From an uncultured Ruminiclostridium sp. (GTDB taxonomy: Bacteria > Bacillota > Clostridia > Oscillospirales > Ruminococcaceae), in NCBI GenBank assembly GCA_947594425.1, contig CANQED010000006.1, positions 62,001 through 126,000 on the forward strand: DNA of 64,000 nt, in the 5' to 3' direction. This document shows positions 42,782-58,469 of this stretch, in pieces (positions within the stretch are counted from its first letter, which is position 1; each line of letters opens with the position of its first letter). The notes under the pieces are model-generated. The model did no database searches, was not told the origin of the DNA, and saw only the letters and a program-made list of their open reading frames with translations. Both the position numbers and the translations under genes were made by a program.

Positions 42782-45409
42782 TTAGATCTCCTCTACCCTA
42801 ATATAATCTATCATAATACTTCTGTTTTCTCCCCTCAGTTGTGCCGCGCCTATCATAAATTCATCATAAAAACTATTATTCGGTGTAAATTCCTTTTCAA
42901 TTATTATCCACGTATTATTATTTTGAGGCGTGACCTTATGAGTGTGAATAACTTGAAATTCTCTGCTGTTAGAGCGCTTAATATGAAAATTAAAATCGGG
43001 CGATGATGTTGACAGCTTGAATTTGATCTTCAATTTGTATCTCTTTCCCTTTTCTAATTTGTCAGGCAATGCAAGCATACAATAATGACCTATCTCGGGA
43101 TACGGCATTTGTGTAGTTAATACCGTCGAGCCGTCCAGATAATCGTCCCTCCAGTAGGTAGGATCGAAGTGAAAATACGACATTTTTCCTTTTGCTATCT
43201 TCATCGCAGCCTCTTTTGCCGCGTGATATGAGGTTTTTTCTACAGTGTCGAGAAAAACGCGCCGCCTAAGAGTATCCGGCCAGTGTCGTTCGCTTGTAAA
43301 TGCAACGACATTATATTTTTTTACACTTTCTAGTGGTTCTTCTTTCAAAACGCCGATATACTCTTTCGGCACGGATGAAAGGAATTCCTCTCCCTTTGCG
43401 TTATTTACAAGTATCAGTGATACCCCCTTTGACGGGTCGACGCTCTTGTCGTATTTCTGTATTCCCCAACAATCACCTATCGTGAGATCTCCTACGCGCA
43501 TTGTCCCTTGATATTTGCAGTCAAGGCAATGAGATGAAAGAGAAAGCGAGCAACTATGAAAAACTTTTAAATAATCATCGTTATTCTCCGCAGTAACTGT
43601 CTGAGTGCGCCCGTCTTTATAAGTTATTAAAGACGTATTTTCTCCCATTATAGTATCATTTTCATTCTTATGCCTGAAATTATATGCTGCAAGCTCATTC
43701 AAATCAAATCTTTCACCGAGATACTTTTTAAAAAGTCCCGCACTCGGGCAATTAGCGCAAAACAGATCTACAATAAGCAGGTTTGAATAGCCTTTGCCTA
43801 AATATTTTCTAAGCCCCGCTGCCTGACAGGGCGTCCCGACAAACATAAGCGGTTTGCCGTCACCGAGCTTTTCTTTTATTTTCTTAAAAGTATCGCCCAT
43901 ATAGCTCTGAAAATATTTGGACTTTTTCTGCTTATTCAAGTCCTCCTTTGTATAAGCAAATATATGCTCTGCGACAAAATCGTCTGTCCATGCCGCACCT
44001 ACGACACAGCCGCCTTTATCTATTACGCTCTTAGCCAAAACAGTCGCCGCCCCGCCCGACGCGCAGCTCATAAGCTCATTTTTATCGCTTGTAATAAAAG
44101 CATACGCAATAGGCGCGGGGGTATTCAGATTTCGCGGCAGCTCTATCGCGGCGCATACATCAACGCATTTTCCACAGTTCACGCATTTATCAAAGTCGAC
44201 CTCGGCTTTATAAGAGCCGTATTTATCCGTTCCGAAATGTACGGCGTCGACAGGGCACGCCGATACGCACGCTCCGCACCCCATGCACAGCTTTTTATCA
44301 AGCTTGGTGTTTACATTTTTTATCTCGACCGAGGGCAGCTTTTCTATAGGCGTAAGTAATGCGTTTTTCAGCCATTTAACAGACCTGTCCCTCTCCCTTT
44401 CGATAACTCGATTTGCATTTGTAAAATCTATCTTTTCTAAGAATTTTTCATCAAGCGGTATTTTCGTATCAGAAACTAATCTATCGCTCATGTTTATCGA
44501 TGATAATAGAGTTTTAAATCTTTCAACACCACGCATAATATTTTGAACGGCGATAAACGGCTTATTATAAATAATTGAGAAACAAGCGCCGTGAAAACTG
44601 TCTGTAATTACAAACGATGCGTTTTGATAATATCTCAGCAAATCAAAAGCAGTTATATTAGGCAATGTATTCGGCAAATTCAAAATTTGCTTGACTCTCT
44701 CATAACGTCCTGAAAACCCATCAAGAATATTTACTGCTTTTATTCCCAATTTTTCGGAATAAAACTGTATTGCCTTTCTCTTTTCTTCGGTCGGATCAAG
44801 AATATATGTAAGCAAATATTTTTCCTTTTCATTATATTGAGAGTATTCAGCTAATTTATCCCATACATCTTTTGTAACGTCAAAAACCGGCTCCATAACT
44901 CTCGTTCCTAATATTCCGTATTGCTTTGCCAAAATATCGACACTTTCGTCTTCTCTGACGGATATTGCAGAATACCGGCTAAGAAGCTTTTTGTTTTCCG
45001 CTAAAACACTATCCGGCTCTTGAACATATCTGCCAAATGAAGTGGAAAAACTAATTTTCTTTTTTGCGTCATCAACAAAATCTAATTTAAAATAATTGGC
45101 AAATCTTCGTTCGCCTTTATTTGGGTTGTAATGCCATATCTGGTCTGAACCCGTAAGAAAAGAATTGCATTTTCCGTTATATTCTCCTAATCTTTCAAAC
45201 GGCAAAACCTCTGATAGATCGTTTTCATCATATACTTTTTCAAAAAATCTCTTAGCATGCGGCTCAAAGCCATTATAAGGCGTAACTATATTAAGCGGCG
45301 ACAATCCGAACGATTTTAGTATTGAAAATGTCGCATAGCCGTTTAACAGCGACCCGTAATTTCCCCAATACCAGCACCCGACTACTCCGACATCATAATG
45401 TTCTCTCAT
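42782..45409 (-). CDS. Polysaccharide pyruvyl transferase - ferredoxin - FrhB fusion with C-terminal beta domain
   Basis: An 875-residue protein. Residues 1-360: polysaccharide pyruvyl transferase (CWYWGNYGSLLNGY, LTGSDQIWHYN, SFSTSFG, VITDSFHGACFSIIYNKPF). About 368-425: two 4Fe-4S sites (CMGCGACVSACP and CVNCGKCVDVCA). About 430-745: FrhB-type flavin domain (MSCASGGAATVLAKSVIDKG, FVGTPCQAAGL). About 750-875: a beta-sandwich-like tail resembling a carbohydrate-binding module. Pyruvyl transferases put ketal pyruvate on glycans using PEP; the redox half may modify or reduce a sugar. Last gene of the glycan operon; the partner at 48548 has the domains in reverse order. Confidence 0.85.
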   Translation of the reverse strand: MREHYDVGVVGCWYWGNYGSLLNGYATFSILKSFGLSPLNIVTPYNGFEPHAKRFFEKVYDENDLSEVLPFERLGEYNGKCNSFLTGSDQIWHYNPNKGERRFANYFKLDFVDDAKKKISFSTSFGRYVQEPDSVLAENKKLLSRYSAISVREDESVDILAKQYGILGTRVMEPVFDVTKDVWDKLAEYSQYNEKEKYLLTYILDPTEEKRKAIQFYSEKLGIKAVNILDGFSGRYERVKQILNLPNTLPNITAFDLLRYYQNASFVITDSFHGACFSIIYNKPFIAVQNIMRGVERFKTLLSSINMSDRLVSDTKIPLDEKFLEKIDFTNANRVIERERDRSVKWLKNALLTPIEKLPSVEIKNVNTKLDKKLCMGCGACVSACPVDAVHFGTDKYGSYKAEVDFDKCVNCGKCVDVCAAIELPRNLNTPAPIAYAFITSDKNELMSCASGGAATVLAKSVIDKGGCVVGAAWTDDFVAEHIFAYTKEDLNKQKKSKYFQSYMGDTFKKIKEKLGDGKPLMFVGTPCQAAGLRKYLGKGYSNLLIVDLFCANCPSAGLFKKYLGERFDLNELAAYNFRHKNENDTIMGENTSLITYKDGRTQTVTAENNDDYLKVFHSCSLSLSSHCLDCKYQGTMRVGDLTIGDCWGIQKYDKSVDPSKGVSLILVNNAKGEEFLSSVPKEYIGVLKEEPLESVKKYNVVAFTSERHWPDTLRRRVFLDTVEKTSYHAAKEAAMKIAKGKMSYFHFDPTYWRDDYLDGSTVLTTQMPYPEIGHYCMLALPDKLEKGKRYKLKIKFKLSTSSPDFNFHIKRSNSREFQVIHTHKVTPQNNNTWIIIEKEFTPNNSFYDEFMIGAAQLRGENRSIMIDYIRVEEI

Positions 45410-45410
45410 C

Positions 45411-48400
45411 TTATTTTCTCCCCCTCAATTTACCGAAAGTTCTTTTCCCCTCGTCGCTCTCCGCGGCGGGTGCGGCGGGCGCTTTTTCGCTCTCCATCCC
45501 ATTTACCGCGTTATCCGGCAGCATATCATTCTGCCATACAAAGCCCTGCGTTATACGCTCAAATTTTACCGAGTCGCGGTCGCTCCTGCTCGTCAGCGCG
45601 GCAAAGCTGTAGTCGTACCCGCACGCCCGTCCGGGATATTTTGCGAAGAATGCCACGCTGTTTTTATCCGGGCAGGCGTATATCATACCTTTCAGCGGCG
45701 CGGCGTCGCTCTCCCAGTCGAATTGATGGAGCTCTATCCGCCGCGCTCCCTCTTCGCCGAACCACGTCCCCGATATCCTCAGCGTATCGGATACCGACGC
45801 GCCTAAATTTTCCAGCTTAATAAATTTTATCTCGGCATAAAAGTCACTGTAGTTAAAATCCTCAAGCGTCAGCTTAAACAGCTTAGTCCCTGCGCCCTCA
45901 AACGCCACATCCGACTGAAAGGTCACCTTGCCTCTTAATTCTCTCATTTTTTTCAATTCCTCTCTCAGCTTGTCGTTTTCTTCGTTTGCTTTCCACAGCT
46001 TATCCCTTAATTTCTCCAATTCGCTGTTCGGAGTAAAATTAGTCTCGTTCAGAGAGATGTTTTTGTGCAGAAATTCGTTTTCCTTTATCAGCCAGCCATA
46101 ATCCTCTTTAGACATCTCCACCGTACCGCTGTTGTCGATACCGTAATACCCCGCAAGCTCGTCGACGTGCTGTCCCATAGTGACCAGTCCGTGATGATGC
46201 GCCCAGTATTCCTTTAGATCCTCGGGCTTATCGATAAAGTGCATTATCTTAGCATTCAGCTCCTCGGCGTCCCCCGCCGCAAACTTAAACAGCTCGCTGT
46301 CGCACAGCTCCGACGCTCCGCCCGCGCTGCTCGCGAGCACAGGCACTCCGTATGCCACCGACTCTATCGCTATCTGCGGAAGATTGTCCTCCCACAACAC
46401 CGGCACAAGGCTGAGATTGCACCCCTTGAAAATATTCGGAAGGTCCGCATGGGTATAGCCGTTTATTACCTTTATCGAGTGAAAATTGCGCAGCATAGAA
46501 TATATCTCCGCGTGCTCTTTTTGTTTTACAGTCAATACAAGATCTATTTTTTTGGCATACTTAACAGGCATTTTACTCAAAGCGTCCAATAAAAACGGAT
46601 AGCCTTTTTCCTCATAGTTTATGTCGTTGCCCAAGAACACTATTTTTAATCCGTTTTCGGCGGGATACGACTGATTTTTGCATTGAATGGACGCGACCTT
46701 TGTGCCGATATACGATACTTTCATTTTTGCGGTGTCAAAGCCGTTATCCTCCGCTATTTTATACACCCTTTTAGATACCGCAAGTATCACGTCGCAATTT
46801 TTATTCAGCTTTGCGGTAGCGGTTTTCGCAAAGTCAAGTATATTTTCCGCCGTTGCGTCTATATCCAATCTTTCAAAGCCGAAGCTATTTATCCAATGAT
46901 TTTGCGAAAAGCACCTGCTCGGTTCGTGACCGTACTTTCCGCGCTCGTATGTCTCAAGCGCAATTTTTGACTTAATATCCGCGCGGGTGCATTTCATACA
47001 ATCTTCTCCCGTGTGGTCGGGAACGCAGTTGCAGTGCTTATGCCGCATATAATACGAACCGTTTACGCACAGCGGAACATAATTGTGGATAGAAAAGATG
47101 AATTTGGTCTCGGGGTGTTCTTCTTTCAAATCAAGGACGTCTAACGACAGACCCTCAATATTATTAAAATGGATAGTTTCAAAGGGACCGTATTTTTCCA
47201 AAAATTCATTGAACTTAGCTTTTAGATCCTTATTTTCAAGCGCGACAAGTGGATTTATATACATATTCCTCTGCTCTGCCGGAACAGGAGAATTTACTAT
47301 CTCATACTGACGTACTTTATCGTCGAAAATATTGTTGATTTTTCGGTAATATATTTCTTCCTTGTATGCGTCATACGCAAATCCGCTTGACAGAAAATAT
47401 ATGTTTACCGTAGGATATTTATTGAGTATCTCTTCGATAATATTTTTGCAATAAACGGTAACACCGCCGCCCCAATTCCACGGATTATCGAACGGCAGCC
47501 AATTGTAAATAAGTATTTTTGGAAATTTAGCGGATATTTTTTTCAGCGGAGAAAGATAGGTATTATACAACAGCTGTTCCTTAAGGCTGAACTCCTCCGA
47601 TATACAATCTCTGTCGAGCCGCTTCATTAAACTGTTGGCACATTCCGTTATCTCAGCCTCGTTCGCGTCGTAATCAAAATCTTGTATGGCTCCGTTAAGA
47701 TATATTAAAGCCCTCGAATAAGTCGGGCGCTTGATTTTTCTGTCTGTAAATCCGTTTGTCTCAAGAATATCAAGATTATCCTCCATTCTCAAGAAAGGTA
47801 TCTTCGGATCCATCTGATTATTAGACGACGACTCGGGGTTGGATCTAAAGTAGAAGTAAAACGCCCTTTTCGTCCACATTATGCTCTTTGCCTTGCACAG
47901 CGTCTCGTAGAAGAACGGGTTATCCACCCAGCCGCCGCCTTTTTCTTCCATGAATACTATCTTGTTTTCACGCAAAAATTCGCGGCGGTATATCGCGCTC
48001 CATACCGACGGGTGTCCCCATGATATCTGCGGGTCGTCCTTGAGCTTGAACGGCTTTTCGGTGTCCGCTATCATATCGCGCTCGTGGTTGGGAGTTATCA
48101 CGGGCGGCTTATCGTTCTGCTCATAATAATCATAAAAATTCCCCTTAACTACGTCCACCTCGCCGCCGCCCGTCAGCGCATACAGCGATTCATACATATC
48201 CGCCGCGATAAAGTCGTCGCTCTCTACTATCCCGATATATTCGCCCGTCGCCGCGTCGAGACCTCTGTTCATCGAATTGCCGTAGCCCGAATTTGGCTTG
48301 TCGATAAGCTTTACCCTGTCGTCCTTTTCGACAAACTCCTTTATTATATCCGGCGAGTTATCCTTGCTGCCGTCGTTTACGACGATGACCTCTATATCCT

Positions 48401-48500
48401 CGAGCGTCTGATGTATTATGCTGTTCAGACACCGCGCCAAATACTTTTCTACATTGTATACCGGGACTATCACCGATACCTTTGGGTTGCTTACTTTCAT
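45411..48500 (-). CDS. Multidomain glycosyltransferase (GT2 + GT4-like + coiled coil + beta domain)
   Basis: A 1029-residue protein. GT2 at ~7-330 (VSVIVPVYNVEKYLARCLNS, VVNDGSKDNS, ESDDF). GT4/GT1-like at ~335-785: donor-side IVFLGNDINYEEKGYPFLLD, VLWEDNLPQIAIESVAYGVP. A Cys/His cluster (HKHCNCVPDHTGEDCMKC, ~488-505) in the GT4 N-lobe may bind metal. A coiled coil (~820-865) and a beta-rich C-terminal domain (~870-1000) follow. It could add two successive sugars. It stops 2 bases before the next gene's ATG, so translation is tightly linked. Confidence 0.87.
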   Translation of the reverse strand: MKVSNPKVSVIVPVYNVEKYLARCLNSIIHQTLEDIEVIVVNDGSKDNSPDIIKEFVEKDDRVKLIDKPNSGYGNSMNRGLDAATGEYIGIVESDDFIAADMYESLYALTGGGEVDVVKGNFYDYYEQNDKPPVITPNHERDMIADTEKPFKLKDDPQISWGHPSVWSAIYRREFLRENKIVFMEEKGGGWVDNPFFYETLCKAKSIMWTKRAFYFYFRSNPESSSNNQMDPKIPFLRMEDNLDILETNGFTDRKIKRPTYSRALIYLNGAIQDFDYDANEAEITECANSLMKRLDRDCISEEFSLKEQLLYNTYLSPLKKISAKFPKILIYNWLPFDNPWNWGGGVTVYCKNIIEEILNKYPTVNIYFLSSGFAYDAYKEEIYYRKINNIFDDKVRQYEIVNSPVPAEQRNMYINPLVALENKDLKAKFNEFLEKYGPFETIHFNNIEGLSLDVLDLKEEHPETKFIFSIHNYVPLCVNGSYYMRHKHCNCVPDHTGEDCMKCTRADIKSKIALETYERGKYGHEPSRCFSQNHWINSFGFERLDIDATAENILDFAKTATAKLNKNCDVILAVSKRVYKIAEDNGFDTAKMKVSYIGTKVASIQCKNQSYPAENGLKIVFLGNDINYEEKGYPFLLDALSKMPVKYAKKIDLVLTVKQKEHAEIYSMLRNFHSIKVINGYTHADLPNIFKGCNLSLVPVLWEDNLPQIAIESVAYGVPVLASSAGGASELCDSELFKFAAGDAEELNAKIMHFIDKPEDLKEYWAHHHGLVTMGQHVDELAGYYGIDNSGTVEMSKEDYGWLIKENEFLHKNISLNETNFTPNSELEKLRDKLWKANEENDKLREELKKMRELRGKVTFQSDVAFEGAGTKLFKLTLEDFNYSDFYAEIKFIKLENLGASVSDTLRISGTWFGEEGARRIELHQFDWESDAAPLKGMIYACPDKNSVAFFAKYPGRACGYDYSFAALTSRSDRDSVKFERITQGFVWQNDMLPDNAVNGMESEKAPAAPAAESDEGKRTFGKLRGRK

Positions 48501-48547
48501 TATTACACCTCTTGTATATTTTTGTGTCGGAATACCGACCGTTTTCC

Positions 48548-50806
48548 TTACTTTTTCGCTTTAAGCGCGTCGATCTCGCTTTGCTGCTCAGCGACCAGCT
48601 TTTCAAGCCGTTCTACCCTCAGCGCGAGCGAGCGCAGGCTCGGCTGCCTTTCTTTCCCGAATGACAGCGCACCTTTCAGCCGTTCGAGGCTTATCGCCCT
48701 TTCTCGCTTAAATATCTCCCTCACCGGCGCATAGTCTATGTCGGTCAAAAGTTCCGCCCGCTCCGGCAATTTGCTCGGGTCATAAAGCAGCCTTTCGGGC
48801 AGCCCCGCGAGCTCGAGCAGATGCGTAAACCTCGTTATCCCCCTCGAATAATTCGCAAACGCCGCAAACGGCTTTTCATATATCATCGCAAAGCACGCGC
48901 CGTGGTGCGAGTCCGTCAGCACAAACCTGCTGTGCTTAAAACAGCTCACGAATTCCTCTATCGTCGGGTCATCTTTTAATTCGCCCGTGTGCCACTCTCC
49001 TTTTCTTCTCTGCTCGGTCTTCATATCGAGAATGGCTGTCACCTTTAGCCCGAGCCTCTTTGCGGCGTAGCTTATCGCTTTTTGCTTTTCCTCCGACGGG
49101 TCGAGGATGTAGCACAGCAGATACCCGTCCTCCTTAATGTCCGCCTTGTCCGCAAGGCTGTCATAATGCCTTTTATCGCAGATAAAGACCGGGTCGAGAT
49201 CTCTGTTTACCTCTATGCCGAAATTCTCCTTAGCCGCCGATATCCCCGACCTCTCCCTCACCGAGATGTAGTCAAAATCCAGCAGCAGCTCCCTCGCCTT
49301 TTTCTTCTGCTCTGTCGTCCCGCCAAATTCCTCATGCCCGAACGACGTCGCAAAAGCCACCTTCTTTTTGTCCGCCTCGGCAAAGTCGAGGAAGAACGTG
49401 TACCCCGTAAGGTCTATCGCCCCTTTCGTCCACAGCTGATCCGACCCCAGCATAAACATATCGCAGAACCTGTTTACCTCCGACAGCTTATCGACAGGGC
49501 GATATTTTGTGATGGGGAAGAATTTTTTCATAAAATCCACAGTCTTTTTTGTCTGCGGCTCCCACATCCTGCCGTCCAGCTTTGGCACCTGCACCATTAT
49601 CGCGAGCATATCCATGTCCTCGAGTATCTTGCCAAGCCCATAATATGTCAGCGCGCTGCCGTAATTAGACGCAAACCACCAGCCGACCAGCCCCACGTCA
49701 TAGCGGTACTTTCTTCCGTACCACAGCGACTTTAAATACCCGTCCTCAGGCAAATGCTTAAAGAAAAATCTCCGCCCCGGGTGCTCCGCCTGCGGCGCTC
49801 TTAACGCCCCGTTGAATTTTTGCGCGTGGCTCAGCGGCGCTTTCTCACACAGCTTAAGCCTGCTTTTTATCTTCTTAAACGCCCTCTCGCCCTTTTTTGT
49901 ATTTATCAGTACCAGCGACGTCCCCTTGCGGTCGTCCCACTGCTCCTTGTATTTTCCTATCCCCCAAAAGTCTCCTAGGGTGATATCCCCTACTCTGTGC
50001 GTCCCCGCATATTCGCAATGCCCGCAGTACGGTCGGCAGGTTATCCCGTTTAAAAAGCCGATATACCACTCGCTCTTGTCGTGCGGCTGCCTTGTGACGC
50101 TCCCGTCCGAATAATTTATCGCGACGGGCGTAGACCACCCGTATATTTCTTTCTCGCGAAAATTCACCGACGTTATCTTCCTGCCCTTTGCGCAGTCCTT
50201 TAAAAACGCCCTATACGCCTTAGGCGAATTTCCCCCGTGGCAGACAAGGTCCACCGTCAGCAGATTGTCATACTCCTTTGAAAGAAAATTCTTCAGCCCC
50301 GCTATCTGGCACGGACACCCCGAGTACAGCACCGATTTTCCATTGTCGAGCAGCTTTTTAGTCTCGGCATAGCTCCCCGCGCTCTCGCTCTGCACATACT
50401 TTGACCCGCGCAGCCTCTCGAGCCCCTTTTTATCCGACACAATTATCTGCCTTACCGTCCGATACTCGTCCTCGTACGCCGCGCCGCAGACATATCCTCC
50501 CGCGTCGATAACATTTTCCGCGAGCAAGGTAAACACCCCGCCCGACGAGCTCTTCATCCTCAGCTCGTCGCTGTCCGCCATTACGGCATAGCACTCCGGC
50601 GTGTCGTATCCTCTCGCCGCGCGGCTCACCGACGGGCATTTGCTCTTGCACAGCCCGCACCCCACGCACTTTTCCCTATCGACCGACGGGTACAAAAAGC
50701 CCTCGCCGTCCGCTATCATCCTTATCGCACCCACAGGGCAGATGTCAGCGCACGCCGCGCAGCCCGTGCACTCGCTCTTATTCAGGCTCTCAACATTTGC
50801 CGCCAT
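48548..50806 (-). CDS. Ferredoxin - FrhB - polysaccharide pyruvyl transferase fusion
   Basis: About 752 residues from the ATG at 50806 (AGAGGG upstream). Residues ~10-62: two 4Fe-4S sites (CTGCAACADICP, CVGCGLCKSKCP). About 70-345: FrhB domain (SSSGGVFTLLAENVIDAGG, SGCPCQIAGLKNFL). About 375-690: pyruvyl transferase (VGWWFASNYGSALTYYGLG, LGSDQLWTKG, FATSFGHEE, VLTDSHHGACFAMIYEKPF). About 715-752: coiled coil. The same three modules occur in the 875-residue protein in the opposite order, so the two are paralogues by domain shuffling or descend from separate genes fused twice. Confidence 0.85.
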   Translation of the reverse strand: MAANVESLNKSECTGCAACADICPVGAIRMIADGEGFLYPSVDREKCVGCGLCKSKCPSVSRAARGYDTPECYAVMADSDELRMKSSSGGVFTLLAENVIDAGGYVCGAAYEDEYRTVRQIIVSDKKGLERLRGSKYVQSESAGSYAETKKLLDNGKSVLYSGCPCQIAGLKNFLSKEYDNLLTVDLVCHGGNSPKAYRAFLKDCAKGRKITSVNFREKEIYGWSTPVAINYSDGSVTRQPHDKSEWYIGFLNGITCRPYCGHCEYAGTHRVGDITLGDFWGIGKYKEQWDDRKGTSLVLINTKKGERAFKKIKSRLKLCEKAPLSHAQKFNGALRAPQAEHPGRRFFFKHLPEDGYLKSLWYGRKYRYDVGLVGWWFASNYGSALTYYGLGKILEDMDMLAIMVQVPKLDGRMWEPQTKKTVDFMKKFFPITKYRPVDKLSEVNRFCDMFMLGSDQLWTKGAIDLTGYTFFLDFAEADKKKVAFATSFGHEEFGGTTEQKKKARELLLDFDYISVRERSGISAAKENFGIEVNRDLDPVFICDKRHYDSLADKADIKEDGYLLCYILDPSEEKQKAISYAAKRLGLKVTAILDMKTEQRRKGEWHTGELKDDPTIEEFVSCFKHSRFVLTDSHHGACFAMIYEKPFAAFANYSRGITRFTHLLELAGLPERLLYDPSKLPERAELLTDIDYAPVREIFKRERAISLERLKGALSFGKERQPSLRSLALRVERLEKLVAEQQSEIDALKAKK

Positions 50807-50817
50807 TTTTATCCCTC

Positions 50818-52671
50818 TCAATTTCTCACATATTCATCGGACAGCCCCGCTATATATCTATGCCTGCCGTCCACAAACTCGCTGAACACCCTCGGCAATT
50901 TCCTGCCCGAAAGCAATTCGGGCTCAAGCAGCGAGAGTATCCTTATCAGCTCCGCCGCGACCTTAGCGGGGCTCTCGGTATCCGCGCACCCGTACTCCTC
51001 TACATACACGCGGTCAAAGCACTCGCTCACGAGCTTATCAAAATACCCGCCGTCCAGTATGTCGAACGCTCTGCCGTACAGCGCCGCCGACCCGCATTCT
51101 TTAGCAATCTCCAGCCTGTCCGCTACCGACCTCAGCATCTTCACGCAGTCCTCACTGCTAAGCCTCCTCGCGGGCGGCCGCTCGCACCGATACACACCGT
51201 CGACTGCGGCCTTTTCCTTTGATAAAAGCCGCGCCGCCGCGACAAACACGCTCCCGCTCATTATCGAATAATCGTTAAAGCAAAGCTTGCTCTTCTTGAC
51301 AAAATCCGTCCTATACAGCGCGCACCCCGCGTTATCCTCGCTCCCGCCGCACAATACAAGCTCGGCGCTGTGCTCCTCGGCACACCTTACCCATCTATTT
51401 AGCGCCTCGTTATCCGCAAGTCTGCCGAAAGGGAAAAGATACGCCAGATACTTACCCTCGGCCGCCTTAGCCGCGATATTGCACCCGTCGGTGTAGTGCC
51501 TGTCCTCGGCGTTGTACACCCTCACCCGCTTGTCGCGGTGGAGGTACTTATGTATTACGGCATAACATTCGCTCGATACCGAGTTGTTGACTATTATCAG
51601 CTCTAATTCCCGTAGGCTTTGCCTAAGGCAATTATTTATCGCCTGTTCTATCCTCTCGGGGGCGCAATTATCGCGGCTCACGCATATCGCCGCGGATACA
51701 ATGCACTCACGCGGGCTTTCTTCGCTTACCGCGAAAAAATACTCCAACATCTCCCGTATATGCGGTAAAAGCGCATATCTCAGCCTTTCGTACCCGCACC
51801 GCGAAAATATCTCGGACAGCGCCCTCGCGCCGTCTATCCTATCATTCAGCGGCAGCTTGATAAAGTCGTCATACAAAAATTCCGCGCACCACCGCAAATA
51901 CCCTTTGGCAAAGCGCTCCATCTCCCCCGACCGTATCCACTCGTCGGCGACGTGGCGCACCATCTTTATATGCGCGAGGCACTTTTTCCCCGCGTCGTTA
52001 TACACCAATGTATTCATCAGCGAGTTTTCCCTAAACCAGCGGTACTCGTACAGCTTATCCGCTATCACGGTTATCCCCTTTGCTTTAGGATAAATCCTCA
52101 GCTGAAAGGCGTTATCCTCGCCTACATGTATGCTCTCGTTCAGTAAAAGGCCATTTCTTGTCAGCAGCTCTCTTTTGACAAACGTCCGCCAGATGAACGG
52201 CCGTACCGCCGCGTTATCAAAAAGAAACTCCTCGTCCGCCCTTTCATAATATCCGTTTTGGGGAGAAAGCGCGGCATACAGCCACCCCTCCGCTTTAGGC
52301 TCGGGCGGAAATATTTCCGCCCCGCAGATAACTATTTCCGAATTATCCCGCTTTGCCGCCTTGTACAGCCTTTCTAGCATATTCGGCTTAATGCGGTCGT
52401 CCGCGTCGACAAAGGCGAGGTATTCGCCCTTAGCCGCCCTTATCCCCGCGTTTCTCGCCGAGGGCAGCCCGCCGTTCGGCTTAGTTATGATTTTTATGCG
52501 CTTATCGCGCGCCGCATATCTATTTAAAATCTCCGCGTCCTCGCGCGTCGACCCGTCATTTACGCAGATTATCTCTATGTCGCTGAGCGTCTGAGCAATT
52601 ATGCTGTCTAAGCATTCAGACAGATATTCTTCCACATGATATACCGGCACAAGAACGGACACCAGCGCCAT
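50818..52671 (-). CDS. Glycosyltransferase with two GT2 domains
   Basis: About 617 residues from the ATG at 52671 (AGAGGTG upstream). First GT2 at ~1-235: VSVLVPVYHVEEYLSECLDS, CVNDGST, FVDADDRIKPNML, with the DxD present. Second GT2-like domain at ~325-470: SAAICVSRDNCAPERIEQAI, IIVNNSVSSE, GKYLAYLFPFGRLADN, where the DxD position has become FPFGR, so it is likely degenerate. A possible sugar chain extension enzyme of the glycan cluster. It stops 12 bases before the next gene. Confidence 0.87.
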   Translation of the reverse strand: MALVSVLVPVYHVEEYLSECLDSIIAQTLSDIEIICVNDGSTREDAEILNRYAARDKRIKIITKPNGGLPSARNAGIRAAKGEYLAFVDADDRIKPNMLERLYKAAKRDNSEIVICGAEIFPPEPKAEGWLYAALSPQNGYYERADEEFLFDNAAVRPFIWRTFVKRELLTRNGLLLNESIHVGEDNAFQLRIYPKAKGITVIADKLYEYRWFRENSLMNTLVYNDAGKKCLAHIKMVRHVADEWIRSGEMERFAKGYLRWCAEFLYDDFIKLPLNDRIDGARALSEIFSRCGYERLRYALLPHIREMLEYFFAVSEESPRECIVSAAICVSRDNCAPERIEQAINNCLRQSLRELELIIVNNSVSSECYAVIHKYLHRDKRVRVYNAEDRHYTDGCNIAAKAAEGKYLAYLFPFGRLADNEALNRWVRCAEEHSAELVLCGGSEDNAGCALYRTDFVKKSKLCFNDYSIMSGSVFVAAARLLSKEKAAVDGVYRCERPPARRLSSEDCVKMLRSVADRLEIAKECGSAALYGRAFDILDGGYFDKLVSECFDRVYVEEYGCADTESPAKVAAELIRILSLLEPELLSGRKLPRVFSEFVDGRHRYIAGLSDEYVRN

Positions 52672-52684
52672 ACACACACCTCTT

Positions 52685-54589
52685 TTAAGCTTTTGCGGTC
52701 AATTTTTCAAACGCCCTCTTTATCGTCGGGATAAATCCGTAGGTCCTAAAATACACCCTCATTTTGTTAAAGACCGAGAGCCTGCCATACTCCGCCGTTC
52801 CTACCGACGGCAGCTTTTCCGGCGTCTTACGCCTCGTATGCGGCTTAGTTAAAAGCGCCTTTTCCGCGTTTTTCAGCGCGTCACAGCGGGCACGGCACAG
52901 CTTGTCCTCGCTCTCCTCCTCGCTCATTCTCACTTTAAGCGGCGAACTCTCGGGGGCGGATAGATACCGCGACAAATCGTCCCTGCACCCGCCCTGCGTG
53001 ATGTATTCTATTCGGCTGAGCTCTTTTTGCTGGGCATTTATCACGCGTTCGGTCTTTTCTGCGTCGGCGGGAAATTTAAAAAGCATAGGCGCCTTTACCG
53101 CATAATTCCACCAAAAATTGCTGTACAAGCCCTGAATATTCACCCACGGCTCATTCTCGCCGTAATACAGCACCGGCCGCCATGTCGCCTCAAGCTGATA
53201 CTGCCCGCGATTTTTGAGCTTTGACCTTATCGGGAGCATGTATTCCCTCTCGCCGCCCGCAAGGGTCACGAACCACTCGGCAAAGCAGCCTATCTGATCT
53301 TCGCAGAGCAAATTGAGTATATCTATCGCGCTTTTGCTTTCAAAAAGCGGCTTTGCCTCAGCAAGTATCCTATGCTTTCTAAATCTCTCGCAATTGATGA
53401 CAAATATATCCTCGGACAGCCGTCTATTTTTAGACACATTTGTGATACCGCCCTCGGGCAGTCCGCTGATGTAGTAGTCGTCAACATTGCACGTGCGGTA
53501 AAATTCCGAAAGGTCGTGCATAGCTATCGCTTTCTCGTTAAAATATATCAGCTTCTTTACCTTAGGCAGCCGCTCCGATATTTCCAGCGGGTAATATTCC
53601 CGCCTCAGCCGCGAGTGGACAAATTCCACCCGGCATATGCCGTAATTCTCGCATAGGCTCAAAAATCTCCGCTTGTCCTCGTCGGTGACGTCCACGCCGT
53701 GCATAAGGTAAAAAGTGAATTTCGTACCCTTTTTCGCGTTTTCGAGCGCCGATACCATCGACACCTCGACCGCGTAAAGGTTGTCCTTATTTATCGCATA
53801 CGCTATCGGGATATTAACGCCCTCCGCGGCAAAATTTATCGGGTATACCTTGTATTTAAGCCCCTGCCGCATTTTCTCATATATGAATATCCCCGTCAGC
53901 CGCTCCGAGATAAACAGCCGCTTTTCGCCGATATCCACCCGCCTGCAAAACTCCTCCAATATCCCGAAAATATATTCGCAATACTCGAAAAACATTTTCT
54001 TCGGAAAGATGAACATATTGCAAAAGCAGCCCACATCCTGCCGCATATATTCGTCTGCGGCGGCACAATACTGCGGGTACATTTGCTTTAGCAGCTTCAG
54101 CGCGAGCGCCATATCCTCCGCGCGGTGGCTTGCGAGAAAATGCTTGTATATCCCGTCGACTTTCCCCAAATGGCAGGCAAAGTCGCAGCTTTCGAGTTCC
54201 TCGGACAGCCGCTCGGGATCGTACCCGAGCATATCCAAATATTTAGGCGAGCCCATCTCGGGTATCTCGTACACCTTTATTTCGCCCTCGTTGAATACAA
54301 AATGCCGCCGATAGTGCATAAGGCCTATGTAGTCAGGGTCGTCAATTTTATCATAATTCTTCCACGCCCAGTAAAGCGCGGTCAGCTCGTTGTAGGTGCG
54401 GTTGAGCAGTGAGATATTCTCCCCCGTATCGTCGCCTATCATATTGTCAAGCAGCCACTTGAGGTCGGGGTCGTCGGGGTCTTTCTCCCTTTTAGCTATC
54501 GCCCTGCCGACGTGTATGGGGGTCAAGATATCATCTTTAAGCAAAACATCGGGCTTATGATAGCATATCAGCAGCTTGATCTTCTTCAT
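52685..54589 (-). CDS. DUF4422 protein fused to a GT8-like domain lacking DxD
   Basis: About 634 residues from the ATG at 54589 (GAGGGGAAAC upstream). Residues 1-~240: DUF4422 capsular-polysaccharide domain (LLICYHKPDVLLKDD, YWAWKNYDKIDDPDYIGLMH, HYRRHF). About 262-480: GT8-like fold (INFAAEGVNIPIAYAINKDN, FTFYLMHGVDVTDEDKRRFL). The GT8 position that normally reads LYLDxD..G/HDL is KLIYFNEKAIAMHDLSEF: the DxD metal ligand is missing. DUF4422 members are glycosyltransferase-like. The start overlaps the GlfT2-like gene stop (ATGA). Confidence 0.82.
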   Translation of the reverse strand: MKKIKLLICYHKPDVLLKDDILTPIHVGRAIAKREKDPDDPDLKWLLDNMIGDDTGENISLLNRTYNELTALYWAWKNYDKIDDPDYIGLMHYRRHFVFNEGEIKVYEIPEMGSPKYLDMLGYDPERLSEELESCDFACHLGKVDGIYKHFLASHRAEDMALALKLLKQMYPQYCAAADEYMRQDVGCFCNMFIFPKKMFFEYCEYIFGILEEFCRRVDIGEKRLFISERLTGIFIYEKMRQGLKYKVYPINFAAEGVNIPIAYAINKDNLYAVEVSMVSALENAKKGTKFTFYLMHGVDVTDEDKRRFLSLCENYGICRVEFVHSRLRREYYPLEISERLPKVKKLIYFNEKAIAMHDLSEFYRTCNVDDYYISGLPEGGITNVSKNRRLSEDIFVINCERFRKHRILAEAKPLFESKSAIDILNLLCEDQIGCFAEWFVTLAGGEREYMLPIRSKLKNRGQYQLEATWRPVLYYGENEPWVNIQGLYSNFWWNYAVKAPMLFKFPADAEKTERVINAQQKELSRIEYITQGGCRDDLSRYLSAPESSPLKVRMSEEESEDKLCRARCDALKNAEKALLTKPHTRRKTPEKLPSVGTAEYGRLSVFNKMRVYFRTYGFIPTIKRAFEKLTAKA

Positions 54590-56220
54590 ATGTTTCCCCT
54601 CCAAAGGACCGCCTTGACAAACTCCCACAAGCTCTTCTTCGTCACATACCCCTTTTTCGCCCTGCGGTCAAAGTGCAGCGCTCTTTTGTACCCAAAATAC
54701 ATTTCCTTCCTATCGAAGAAAATATCGGTTGTCGCATAGTCCTTTTTGCACAAAAATGCGGGGATAAGCTGCCCGTACAGCAGCAGTCTTTTTTTGCGGT
54801 CAACCTTAGCGCTCTGCGCCCTCTCATATTTCTCCTGCGAAAATCTCACCCCGTGCCGCTTATACAGCTCTTCCTCGTCTAATATGGGATAATTCAGCCC
54901 GCGTACGTATTCGTGATTTTTCTCCGCGTCGAGCGCGCGTATGTATTCTATCCCCCTGCGATAGTCGCGATAGCCGAGACTTGCCGCCCGCGCCATATTG
55001 TACTGCTGGCGAAACGCCTTTTCGCGCACCCGCCCGCGCGCGAACCTCCTCGCCTCCTTGCGGGATATCCCGCCGTGCAGGCTGCGCGTCAATAAGTAGT
55101 TGCGCACGTTGTAGTACTCGCTGTCGGCGTTATATTTGCCGTCAAAGCGCTCGTGCCAGACCCCGACGCCGCTTAGCGTGACGATATCCATCCCGCACCT
55201 CAGCGCATACTCCACGTCGTCATATTTTATGAAAAACGGCAGCGGCAGCAGCCCGCTTTTCGCATAGCAGACGGGCATACAAAAGAGCCACCAGCCGCCG
55301 TAATTTATCGTCTTTTCGTGTTCATCTTCGCAGAGTGCCTCGCGCTTAGTCATATCGAGCCCGTACGAGCAGCCGGTCTGACTTCCGCTTATGATATCAA
55401 AGTACCCGCCCGCCTCAAAGCAGACGGTAGGCTCATCGGCAAAGAGCATACTCCCCGCGACGCAAAGCTTGTCGTCCCGAGTTGTACTCAAAAATCCGAA
55501 CAGCCGCTCTAATGCCGCAGGTTCAAAGTCCACATCGTCGTCCATTAGCATTATGTGGGTAAAGTCACGCCTCGCCGCGTACTCCATCCCTCGGGCAAAT
55601 CCTCCGCTCCCGCCGCAATTGACACTTTTGATAAGTCTTATTGTGTGGTCAGGAAAGTCACCGAGAGTGCCACCGTTATCCACGACGATGACCTCGCCCT
55701 CTACCCCGCTTTTTCTCAGCGCGTCGGCGGCCGTCAAAGCATTGCGCACCGCGCATTTTTCGCGATGATAGGTGCATATCACTATCGCGGGAGACACCCT
55801 CTTTACCTCGTCACATTCGGCGATTGCGGTTATCTTATCTATGCGTACATCATTTGACATAAATGTCAGCTTAAGATATACAAAAAAACTGTCGGCCGAA
55901 ATGTAGACAAAGCGTGCCAATATTTCAGCATTTGTGTTTGATATATCGCACACATTTTCGCTCAATAGCTCCCCTTTGTCGGTATACATCTGCGCGCATA
56001 TTTTGCCGCTTCCGCATATCTCGTACCCTACCGCTTCTGCCTCGCAGTACCGCCTCATCTTCGCACTGAACACCAGCCCGAAATACGTATCAAAGCTGAC
56101 AACCGCGCCCTTTTCGCCCACAAGGCCGCCGCCCTCAGACCGCACCCTCTCTCCCCTAAAGTACAGCTCCCGCGCCCCCTCGCGCGGGCTCAATGGGATG
56201 GGGAAAAGCGCCTTTTTCAC
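54586..56220 (-). CDS. GlfT2-like glycosyltransferase family 2 protein
   Basis: A 544-residue protein with the layout of galactofuranosyltransferase GlfT2: N-terminal beta-sandwich (~1-135), GT-A domain (~143-375; PAIVICTYHREKC, VVDNGG), metal motif MLMDDDVDFEP (~225), helical C-terminal part with GVGVWHERFDGKYN (~345). In GlfT2 this fold polymerises galactofuranose from UDP-Galf; the sugar here is not proven. Its GTG start overlaps the upstream recombinase stop (GTGA), so it depends on translation of the recombinase. First enzyme gene of the glycan operon. Confidence 0.88.
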   Translation of the reverse strand: MKKALFPIPLSPREGARELYFRGERVRSEGGGLVGEKGAVVSFDTYFGLVFSAKMRRYCEAEAVGYEICGSGKICAQMYTDKGELLSENVCDISNTNAEILARFVYISADSFFVYLKLTFMSNDVRIDKITAIAECDEVKRVSPAIVICTYHREKCAVRNALTAADALRKSGVEGEVIVVDNGGTLGDFPDHTIRLIKSVNCGGSGGFARGMEYAARRDFTHIMLMDDDVDFEPAALERLFGFLSTTRDDKLCVAGSMLFADEPTVCFEAGGYFDIISGSQTGCSYGLDMTKREALCEDEHEKTINYGGWWLFCMPVCYAKSGLLPLPFFIKYDDVEYALRCGMDIVTLSGVGVWHERFDGKYNADSEYYNVRNYLLTRSLHGGISRKEARRFARGRVREKAFRQQYNMARAASLGYRDYRRGIEYIRALDAEKNHEYVRGLNYPILDEEELYKRHGVRFSQEKYERAQSAKVDRKKRLLLYGQLIPAFLCKKDYATTDIFFDRKEMYFGYKRALHFDRRAKKGYVTKKSLWEFVKAVLWRGNI

Positions 56221-57131
56221 CTAATCTCTCCCGCTAATTCCACCGCCCTCACCTTGCTGTCCATACTCGCCTTTTGGCAGTACAGCAGGGTGCTCTGCAC
56301 GCTGGCATTTCCGAGTATCTCGGTCAGGGCGGCTATGTCCGCGCCGCGGCTGATACAGCGGCCTATGAACAGCTTTCTCAGCTCGCTGAAGCTTATCTGC
56401 GGCAGGCGCTCCTTTTTAAGAAAAGCCCGCAGCCTGTATTGCATTGTGCGCGGTTCTGCGGGCATAAGTGTTCCTGTCAAAAAGTACCTGTTGCCCTCTG
56501 CCCTAAACCGCTGCAGATAGCCCGAAAGGCGCGGCGTTATCGGAACGGTGCGCATTCCCGCACGGCTTTGCGGAGAGGATATCACCAGTCCGCCGCCCTC
56601 TCCGGTGGATACGCGCTGTAGGCTTTTGCTTACAGTCAAAACGCCTTTGTCAAGGTCTATATCCGACCACTTAAGCGCGCATAATTCTCCTATTCTCAGT
56701 CCGGTAAACAGCGTCAGGGCTATCCCCGCTTTGGTGAGGTCGGGCTTGTCCGAAACGGCTTTACAAAGCCGTTCAAAGCTGTACTCGTCATAGATCTTAT
56801 CTACACTTTCGGCACTCGAGACCCTCGGCAAGTCCACCTTAGCCGCAGGGTCGGGGACATTGTACAATTGTGATAGATATTTGGTTATCATTTTCAGCAG
56901 TGACAAATTGCTTACGGCGTACCGCTGAGTTACGCCATCGCTTAAAAGTTTCGCATAAAACGCCGATATTTCTCGCTCGCTGAGCTCGCAGAATGCGGTT
57001 TCGGCAAAGTAAGGCAGGATATTTTTTTCAAGCTTAAGCTTGTATTGCGCATACGAGGACAGACGCACGCGGCTCTTTATGTATTCAAGCCATTCCGCCG
57101 CACCGTCCTTAAAAACGGGATATTCTGCCAT
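56217..57131 (-). CDS. Tyrosine recombinase, catalytically degenerate
   Basis: A 304-residue tyrosine recombinase-like protein: core-binding SAM-like domain (~8-100) and catalytic fold (~115-295). Arg I is kept (FTGLRIGELCALKWSD), as is the Lys hairpin (LTVSKSLQR) and the Tyr (LLYCQ), but HxxR reads SELR (ISFSELRKLF) and the later His/Trp is Asn (ILGNASVQSTLL). It lacks an N-terminal arm-binding domain. So probably reduced or no recombination; possibly a DNA-binding partner or modulator of the intact recombinase upstream. It overlaps the GlfT2-like gene. Confidence 0.88.
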   Translation of the reverse strand: MAEYPVFKDGAAEWLEYIKSRVRLSSYAQYKLKLEKNILPYFAETAFCELSEREISAFYAKLLSDGVTQRYAVSNLSLLKMITKYLSQLYNVPDPAAKVDLPRVSSAESVDKIYDEYSFERLCKAVSDKPDLTKAGIALTLFTGLRIGELCALKWSDIDLDKGVLTVSKSLQRVSTGEGGGLVISSPQSRAGMRTVPITPRLSGYLQRFRAEGNRYFLTGTLMPAEPRTMQYRLRAFLKKERLPQISFSELRKLFIGRCISRGADIAALTEILGNASVQSTLLYCQKASMDSKVRAVELAGEIR

Positions 57132-57213
57132 AGTCCGCCTCCCAACTTGTATTTCTTGCGATTTTGGGTTATATTTAAATTATGACGGGGTGATATTCTT
57201 TCGGGAATTTCGT

Positions 57214-57228
57214 CTTTAGCGAAAAATG
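57214..57228 (-). promoter_or_regulatory. Shared motif TTTCGCTAAA, copy 1
   Basis: On the minus strand TTTCGCTAAAGACGAAA lies ~85 bases upstream of the degenerate recombinase ATG. TTTCGCTAAA plus two further matching bases recur ~98 bases upstream of the intact recombinase. Candidate recombinase-binding or regulatory site. Confidence 0.4.
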
Positions 57229-57274
57229 TCGATTATCGGTCGGCTATTTTATTTTCAAGGAGCAAACCGCGCTG

Positions 57275-58327
57275 CTATGCGGCAAAGCAAAGCTTTTTCA
57301 TAAACCGCTTTTTGCGCTCGAGAGAGGAATGAACATACCTATTGAGCGTAATTTCCACGCCCGAGTGACCGAGTATCTCGGACAGCGATTTAACGTCAAA
57401 GCCAAGCTCTACACAGTTTGTGGCGAACACGTGGCGCAGGGCGTGAAAGTGCATTGACGGCAGGTTTGCTTTTTTAAGCAGCGCCTTAAATCTATACTGC
57501 ATCGTGCGCGGCTCAATGGGCTTTTGTGTGCCGGAAAGCAGATAATTCTCACCCGCGCTCATATTATTTGCAAGCAGGCTTAAAACGCGGTCGGGCAGCG
57601 GGATAACGCGCACCGAGGACATGCTTTTCGGCTCGGTTATCACAAGACGCGTGCCGTGCTGGCAGCGTATGCGCTGGATGGTTTTGCTGACAGATAATGT
57701 CCTGTCGGAGAGGTTGATATCTGACCACTTAAGCGCGCACAACTCTCCCAGTCTCAGTCCCGTATAAAGGCAAAGGGTCACGCCGAGAGAGGTCAGGCTC
57801 TTATTAAGCGAGAGGTGCTTTTCGAGGCACTTTTGCTGGGCTTTGTCGGGGAGAAAGATCTCGGTGCGCCTTCTTTTGGGGAGAATGACTTCCGAAATAT
57901 TGTTTTTGATCTCATGTACACGCTCGCCGTACTTCATAACGGATTTGAGTAAAATAACCATGTCGGCGGTGTAGCCTGCGGAAAGCCCGTCAGAAAGCCG
58001 TTCGGCGATAAATCCTCTCACCATATCGGCGGAAAGCTCATCGGTAAAAAGCCCGCCGAATTTCGGCAAAATGTGCGCATCGGCTTTGCCGCGATAGTTA
58101 GCTAAAGTAGACTCTTTTACCTTTACGCTGACAGCCGATAACCACTCGTCAAAAAGCATTTTCACCGTCAGACGGCAGTCGGAATTGCCTCGACTTGCGA
58201 TAAAATCGGCTATCTTGCGCTCGACCTCGGCACGAGACCGCCCATAAAAATACTTCGTCCCATTAGTCCTCTCATCGCTAAATCTGCCCTCATACCGCCC
58301 GTCGCGGCGATGATAAATATTTTTCAT
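57275..58327 (-). CDS. Tyrosine recombinase/integrase, intact
   Basis: A 350-residue integrase of the Tn916/phage type: N-terminal arm-binding domain (~1-48; RRDGRYEGRFSDERTNG), core-binding domain (~55-150), catalytic domain (~165-340). All catalytic residues are visible: Arg in YTGLRLGELCALKW, Lys in LSVSKTIQR, HALRHVF (HxxR), GHSGVEITL and Tyr in NRYVH. It is homologous to the next gene, which looks like a decayed or specialised duplicate. No phage structural or conjugation genes are nearby; downstream is the glycan operon. AAAGGAGG precedes the ATG. Confidence 0.93.
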   Translation of the reverse strand: MKNIYHRRDGRYEGRFSDERTNGTKYFYGRSRAEVERKIADFIASRGNSDCRLTVKMLFDEWLSAVSVKVKESTLANYRGKADAHILPKFGGLFTDELSADMVRGFIAERLSDGLSAGYTADMVILLKSVMKYGERVHEIKNNISEVILPKRRRTEIFLPDKAQQKCLEKHLSLNKSLTSLGVTLCLYTGLRLGELCALKWSDINLSDRTLSVSKTIQRIRCQHGTRLVITEPKSMSSVRVIPLPDRVLSLLANNMSAGENYLLSGTQKPIEPRTMQYRFKALLKKANLPSMHFHALRHVFATNCVELGFDVKSLSEILGHSGVEITLNRYVHSSLERKKRFMKKLCFAA

Positions 58328-58345
58328 ATTTCCTCCTTTGAATTA

Positions 58346-58374
58346 TTGACAAACAACGGATTTTATGATATACT
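58346..58374 (+). promoter_or_regulatory. Consensus promoter on the plus strand, upstream of no gene
   Basis: TTGACA (58346-58351), 17-base spacer, TATACT (58369-58374). It points away from the integrase into a non-coding stretch that ends in a strong terminator at 58470-58505. No plus-strand coding frame follows. Confidence 0.65.
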
Positions 58375-58387
58375 TTGTGTATAATAT

Positions 58388-58416
58388 ATTATGACTGTTT
58401 TTTGCGGTTTTCGCAA
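58388..58416 (-). promoter_or_regulatory. Candidate promoter for the recombinase/glycan operon
   Basis: On the minus strand TTGCGA (58416-58411), 17-base spacer, CATAAT (58393-58388). It overlaps head-on with the plus-strand promoter at 58346-58374, and the TTTCGCTAAA motif (58434-58425) is just upstream. Confidence 0.5.
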
Positions 58417-58424
58417 ATGACGAA

Positions 58425-58434
58425 TTTAGCGAAA
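58425..58434 (-). promoter_or_regulatory. Shared motif TTTCGCTAAA, copy 2
   Basis: Second occurrence of the ten-base motif, ~98 bases upstream of the intact integrase ATG; a TTTCGC (58409-58414) on the plus strand forms an inverted partner. Confidence 0.4.
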
Positions 58435-58469
58435 GAATATGGCTTGATTTTTTTGTATAATAAGCGCAA

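Follow-up and report, generated by a model that had tools for sequence, protein, structure and literature searches.

In N-acetylmuramic acid synthesis, MurA and MurB act by enolpyruvyl transfer from phosphoenolpyruvate (PEP) followed by flavin-dependent reduction of the C=C bond, which yields a lactyl ether. Reports of lactyl-ether sugars in bacterial capsules and O-antigens go back a long way, and the synthesis of these sugars is poorly understood. FrhB-type enzymes carry a flavin and iron-sulfur clusters, and C=C reduction is known in this family from BciB, a ferredoxin-dependent 8-vinyl reductase. We analysed a 64,000-nt stretch of DNA (the window, to which all coordinates refer) from an uncultured Ruminiclostridium sp., contig CANQED010000006.1. 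It encodes two proteins in which a pyruvyl transferase domain of the PS_pyruv_trans family (PF04230; PPT) is joined to a 2x[4Fe-4S] ferredoxin module (Fd) and an FrhB domain. Each fusion probably suffices by itself to put lactyl ethers (O-1-carboxyethyl groups) on a surface glycan. This reading is suggested by the domains, the intact motifs, the recurrent fusion and linkage, a gene pair at E. coli O124 loci, whose antigen we take to be lactylated, and a published correlation among capsule types.

The first fusion has 875 residues (42782..45409, minus strand; open reading frame (ORF), Pfam and motif check) and the order PPT-Fd-FrhB-tail. Its PS_pyruv_trans domain spans residues 17-289 (44543..45361, E 9e-29) and is followed by the ferredoxin module at about residues 370-421 (44147..44302; Pfam and cysteines), FrhB_FdhB_N at 443-505 and FrhB_FdhB_C at 521-683 (43361..43849, E 3e-18). 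The tail matches CBM_4_9 slightly below the cut-off (24.5 vs 25.9 bits). The second fusion, on the same strand and identified in the same way, has 752 residues (48548..50806) and the order Fd-FrhB-PPT followed by a putative C-terminal coil, with the ferredoxin at about residues 5-60, FrhB_FdhB_N at 73-141, FrhB_FdhB_C at 157-322 (49841..50338, E 9e-23) and PS_pyruv_trans at 381-652 (48851..49666, E 1e-29). Our reading begins with the ATG at 50806, five codons downstream of the TTG chosen in the mechanical ORF list. Both proteins exceed the gathering scores of PF04230 (101.6 and 104.8 bits vs 25.3), PF04432 (66.6 and 81.3 vs 23.3) and PF04422 (22.9 and 27.4 vs 22). All eight cysteines of the two CxxCxxC...C ferredoxin motifs, the four core cysteines of FrhB and the 'SxH' histidine of PPT are intact in both. 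The first-pass annotation, which described two fusions of opposite domain order in one operon, is thus borne out by the ORFs and Pfam.

Fusion and linkage recur across the order to which the source organism belongs. FrhB is present in 95 of its 297 genomes. We fetched 111 regions, reaching about 6 kb to each side of the over-cut-off FrhB hits outside the source genome, some regions being cut short by the end of a contig, and searched them with profiles made from the sequences of this analysis; four over-cut-off hits, all partial, stayed unfetched (G087, G164 and two of G193). A PPT is linked, i.e., fused or within about 6 kb, to 109 of the 123 FrhB hits found, which include one gene in two pieces. 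Fusions account for 47 of the 123, with 26 in the order PPT-FrhB and 21 in the order FrhB-PPT. Among the unfused genes, a PPT lies within 1.2 kb in 41 and further away, up to about 5 kb, in 21, leaving 14 without one. All 62 unfused, PPT-linked FrhB genes are on the strand of their PPT. Both architectures and adjacent unfused genes, for which the first-pass annotation had proposed a search, recur across the order. One protein of 1,331 aa reads PPT-Fd-FrhB-PPT, and two others carry the pair together with two GT2 domains. With 47 fusions in both orders and 109/123 linkage, we rejected a one-off chance fusion.

Linkage could also arise if both genes merely resided in horizontally moving glycan cassettes and acted independently. 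The loci are indeed patchy (95/297 genomes), some are on plasmids, and three cassettes of the source genome adjoin recombinases. As a control, we inspected 40 regions that surround a gene for UDP-galactopyranose mutase (GLF) in the same order: a PPT occurred in 2 of the 40, one being an FrhB fusion. This count omits 8 GLF hits inside already fetched FrhB loci and 4 never-fetched hits; adding the 8 gives 10 of 48, with 9 of the 10 FrhB-linked. Given this control and the 47 fusions in both orders, we consider mere co-residence very unlikely.

According to the first-pass annotation, a joint function would be contradicted if the modules were unlinked in most genomes or one of them were inactive. 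Seen from FrhB, the modules are linked in most cases. Seen from PPT, the linkage is weaker: the 35 PPT matches in 41 genomes (source included) comprise 15 FrhB fusions, 7 or 8 with an FrhB at a distance of up to about 6 kb, and 12 or 13 that are not FrhB-linked. In relatives, a PPT domain of another branch also occurs without FrhB, in frames of 749-820 aa (L249-L252, L255-L257).

The source genome itself has seven PPT and six FrhB matches. Its FrhB proteins comprise four Fd-FrhB-PPT fusions, including the 752-aa protein of the window, one PPT-Fd-FrhB fusion (the 875-aa protein) and one Fd-FrhB without a PPT domain of its own, encoded immediately downstream of a fusion gene. The remaining two PPT matches (L017, L018) are C-terminal on frames of ~1,290 aa and have neither FrhB nor the motif histidine. 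These two frames lie on contigs of ~4 kb, and their C-terminal parts are near-identical by eye.

The residues expected of a redox enzyme are conserved. Every one of the 147 aligned FrhB domains over 300 aa keeps the four core cysteines, and at least 52 of the 53 fused ones keep any given ferredoxin cysteine. This conservation bears on the redox gating that the first-pass annotation had offered beside a reductive modification, in which the reductase would serve as a gate or sensor that only regulates PPT. A direct fusion fits regulation. The conserved cysteines, the separately encoded pairs and a Ruminococcus albus plasmid on which PPT, FrhB and ferredoxin are three separate genes speak for an electron-transfer enzyme instead, and we regard mere gating as highly improbable. 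The recurrent fusion in both orders, the linkage and the conservation of the active-site residues checked make it very likely that the iron-sulfur flavoprotein and PPT act in one pathway, in line with the single reaction that the first-pass annotation had suggested.

We propose the following mechanism. In a first step, deduced from the family, the PPT domain would move the C3 unit of PEP to a single sugar hydroxyl and produce an enolpyruvyl ether or its equivalent, without closing a cyclic pyruvate ketal. In a second step, the FrhB domain would reduce the C=C bond to give the lactyl (1-carboxyethyl) ether, using electrons that reach its flavin by way of the protein's own two [4Fe-4S] clusters and most likely originate from cellular ferredoxin. 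An enolpyruvyl ether on a single hydroxyl is natural as an intermediate or as an alternative product; by chemical reasoning, glucuronic acid cannot form a 4,6-ketal, since its C6 is a carboxylate. Pvg1, a PPT with known structure, uses PEP (available text of PMC6801904). CofD (TIGR01819) was not found in the one genome searched, the source genome (99.95% complete). Hence, ferredoxin is the likely donor, and F420 dependence was rejected as unlikely. Our guess is that the two paralogues of the operon decorate two different residues.

The TDSxH region of the PPT domains aligns with TDRLH of Pvg1, and the histidine equivalent to that of the Pvg1 'DRLH' is present in both window proteins. It presumably corresponds to H339, counting from R337-L338-H339. 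The residue two before the histidine is Ser in 60 of 72 sampled FrhB-linked PPT rows and Arg in WcaK and Pvg1; 'RxH' is retained in 6 of the 72. Among unlinked PPT rows, 12 of 17 have Arg at this position. In the available text of PMC6801904, R337 of Pvg1 is modelled to contact PEP. From the alignment, this would be the Arg that FrhB-linked PPTs mostly replace by Ser, a replacement that is suggestive only as a clue to function. The single SxH/RxH residue was rejected as a sure marker of function, as 11 of 16 nitroreductase-linked PPTs (see below) have Arg.

These comparisons also bear on another explanation, in which the product of the PPT domain is an ordinary cyclic pyruvate ketal and Fd-FrhB performs a separate reduction on the same glycan, e.g., of a keto sugar. 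The characterised member Pvg1 makes a 4,6-ketal (available text of PMC6801904), the histidine of the catalytic region is conserved, and the few FrhB-linked PPTs with 'RxH', as well as an FrhB-linked clade on the WcaK side of the PPT tree, fit this. The majority of FrhB-linked PPTs, however, form a branch separate from WcaK. The FrhB tree (98 rows) and the PPT tree (107 rows) were built from random subsamples of the rows of the order plus all own and named sequences. Both are quick searches with many open forks, and the label changes counted on them may be gains or losses. On the FrhB tree, the label PPT-FrhB requires 13 changes and FrhB-PPT 5, of which starred branches alone force 6 and 3; the PPT tree requires 11 for the former (9 forced) and 5 for the latter (3 forced). 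The domain order has thus switched repeatedly, and the pair in the window is one instance.

Outside the order, we scanned named genomes with a profile of the FrhB type found at E. coli O124 loci, made from a two-sequence alignment. It gave 16 FrhB loci, including Tolumonas, Methylomonas, Bifidobacterium, a Fervidobacterium and a Methanosarcina metagenome-assembled genome. A PPT is present at 11 of the 16 (one weak, L053; one on the opposite strand, L063), and a later profile adds L059; two of the five loci PPT-free in the first count are contigs of less than 5 kb. The order of Tolumonas (394 genomes) yielded 16 FrhB hits, and for 12 of these a PPT lies no more than about 1.5 kb away, one of the 12 cases being weak. 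On plasmids, FrhB and PPT genes adjoin in Bacteroides finegoldii and Pseudobutyrivibrio and are fused in Marinibacterium, and pSymB of Sinorhizobium meliloti has an FrhB-PPT pair. The examined stretch around the Alloyangia FrhB has no PPT, and viral contigs scanned with the 752-aa protein gave no match.

A second type of reductase is paired with PPT as well. On E. coli plasmid p30COLEC-2, a nitroreductase-family gene lies directly 5' of a PPT, and on plasmid pBDSF8-3_3 a single cluster combines an FrhB-PPT pair with a PPT paired to a nitroreductase fragment. Homologues of the p30COLEC-2 nitroreductase occur in 28 of the 394 genomes. A PPT lies in the ~1.5-kb flank of 18 of 21 long matches and of none of the 7 short or decayed ones; several of these 18 PPTs are weak by profile (weakest E 0.009), and one weak case was confirmed by Pfam (E 2.6e-22). 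FrhB and nitroreductase are both flavin families. Two unrelated reductase types paired with PPT are what a pathway of reduction after pyruvylation leads one to expect, and the ketal explanation leaves the nitroreductase pairing unexplained. Two small E. coli plasmids (L046, L043) carry a glycan cluster with both pair types, one reductase being fragmentary in each, and several insertion sequences.

Clues to the product come from E. coli. Among 5,426 genomes, the O124-type FrhB probe matches six (five chromosomes and one plasmid), and the plasmid FrhB probe matches seven (two plasmids, with partial matches to those five chromosomes). The second plasmid, found by the plasmid probe, has an FrhB fragment with a PPT alongside, and both probes match only genes adjoining a PPT. 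All five chromosomal FrhB genes lie behind a flippase named O124/O164 in RefSeq, in the order wzx-FrhB-PPT-glycosyltransferases; the polymerase, also so named, is in view at one of the five loci. The PPT is intact in two strains, WEC and VL7S7 (L048, L049), and split into two frames in three (L044, L047, L050), a contrast well suited to comparing lactylation. The O124 PPT is 36% identical to the PPT of the 752-aa protein over 273 residues and shares one starred clade of the PPT tree with both window PPTs. We take the O124 O-antigen to be that of Shigella dysenteriae 3 and to carry 4-O-[(R)-1-carboxyethyl]-D-glucose; O164 is the related antigen without lactate, and these strains may be of that type. 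E. coli O58 has another lactyl O-antigen, and its locus was not located. The available text of PMC10609480 gives 4-O-[(R)-1-carboxyethyl]-D-glucose for S. dysenteriae.

Klebsiella capsules point in the same direction. According to the available text of Pan et al. 2015 (PMC4616057), PPT genes occur in only four of 46 capsule types recorded as non-pyruvylated, namely K8, K22, K37 and K66. Table 1 of PMC6856556, a source available in part, has two O-lactyl columns whose sole entries, as its tabs were read, are K66 and K22 plus K37, and it enters K8 as pyruvylated. Thus, the PPT genes in 'non-pyruvylated' types are accounted for; a ketal leaves those of K22, K37 and K66 unexplained. The available text of PMC4616057 also lists one 'coenzyme F420 hydrogenase' and two 'nitroreductases' among 79 Klebsiella loci, and the natural prediction is that these genes belong to K22, K37 and K66. 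For K22, the title of a cited reference gives the (S) configuration. In a Salinivibrio O-antigen, 4-O-lactyl-mannose takes the place that 4,6-pyruvyl-mannose has in similar repeats of other species (available text of PMC8466920). The first-pass annotation had proposed to look for pyruvate ketals; both the O124/O164 locus of E. coli and the correlation for K22, K37 and K66 indicate lactyl ethers formed by reduction instead, and we consider the ketal with a separate reduction unlikely. Tentatively, and with more doubt than confidence, one may extend the proposal to a general bacterial route to lactyl ethers, a second invention of the MurA/MurB kind. In this route, a PPT-family enolpyruvyl transferase would work with a flavin reductase that sets the stereochemistry, FrhB giving (R) as in O124 and nitroreductase (S) as in K22/K37.

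Several observations weigh against lactyl-ether synthesis by the window fusions. The FrhB of the O124 type is only distantly related to that of the window (21%, E 0.001) and has only four of the eight ferredoxin cysteines. On the PPT tree, a small FrhB-linked clade is on the WcaK side, and 10 of 16 nitroreductase-linked PPTs form a separate clade. Fourteen of the 123 FrhB hits (L105, L118, L125, L134, L145, L153, L156, L166, L170, L193, L199, L204, L206, L208) have no PPT in the fetched stretch; some stretches stop at a contig end. A family census of these 14 loci covered 71 of 108 picked ORFs, with 25 of 105 families listed: no PPT is among the families listed, and at least four guanido-phosphotransferase and at least three Clp-type members are. 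Such neighbours indicate that FrhB has other roles; some FrhB genes may adjoin an McsB/ClpC operon, the guanido-phosphotransferase being of the McsB type.

Both fusions lie within one glycosyltransferase operon on the minus strand, with two tyrosine recombinases at its head. Between them, a 1029-aa glycosyltransferase has GT2 and group-1 glycosyltransferase domains (45411..48500; ORF and Pfam). Upstream of the 752-aa protein follow, on the same strand, a 619-aa GT2 glycosyltransferase (50818..52677; ORF and Pfam), a 647-aa DUF4422 protein with a weak GT8-like match (52685..54628; ORF and Pfam) and a 544-aa GT2 protein (54586..56220; Pfam and profile) with a weak likeness to the galactofuranosyltransferase GlfT1, far under the curated cut-off. 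A tyrosine recombinase (56217..57131, minus strand) heads the operon, and a second one (57275..58327, minus strand) is flanked by inverted repeats at 57193-57225 and 58408-58440. These repeats, at the ends of 57193-58440, are 33 nt long and 85% complementary. A head-of-operon tyrosine recombinase between inverted repeats is found in three glycan cassettes of the source genome; in the other two (L014 1614-2816 and L015 238-1440), the repeats are 23 nt long and 96% complementary in each. Judged from the sequence, the arrangement resembles a switch that inverts itself and makes glycan expression phase-variable.

The combination of PPT and FrhB domains is already visible in public annotation. In the open-access literature, we found no paper that assigns PPT with FrhB or nitroreductase to lactyl-ether synthesis, which is weak evidence as most subscription papers were outside the search. 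The families are familiar and the logic is that of MurA/MurB; the pairing itself we regard as new. If the proposal is true, the annotations 'pyruvyl transferase' and 'F420 hydrogenase' mislead in capsule loci, loci with both are lactylating, and structure prediction changes for many anaerobes and some serotypes.

Compared with the ketal-forming Pvg1, CsaB and WcaK, the window PPTs belong to the same family (PF04230) and share the aligned region and the histidine (CsaB by family only). They differ in being fused or linked to a reductase and in having, like most FrhB-linked PPTs, Ser two before the histidine, where WcaK and Pvg1 have Arg. On the reductase side, the Fd-FrhB part matches Fsr (7npa, 7np8) by profile along its length and, over the FrhB part, F420-type beta subunits and the 7-hydroxymethyl chlorophyll a reductase HCAR (5dqr). 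Unlike FrhB, FpoF, Fsr and HCAR, the window proteins have a glycan enzyme fused or adjoining, in a host without CofD. The E. coli O124/O164 pair has the same two families side by side and a PPT of the window clade, but it is unfused and its FrhB is a divergent subtype. MurA/MurB resemble the fusions in the proposed logic and are unrelated as protein families; neither family was among the Pfam matches of either window protein up to E 0.01. MurA/MurB use NADPH and UDP-GlcNAc, whereas the fusions are proposed to use ferredoxin with iron-sulfur clusters and to act on glycan residues. If this is true, the MurA/MurB strategy evolved twice, the second time with ferredoxin as the likely electron source.

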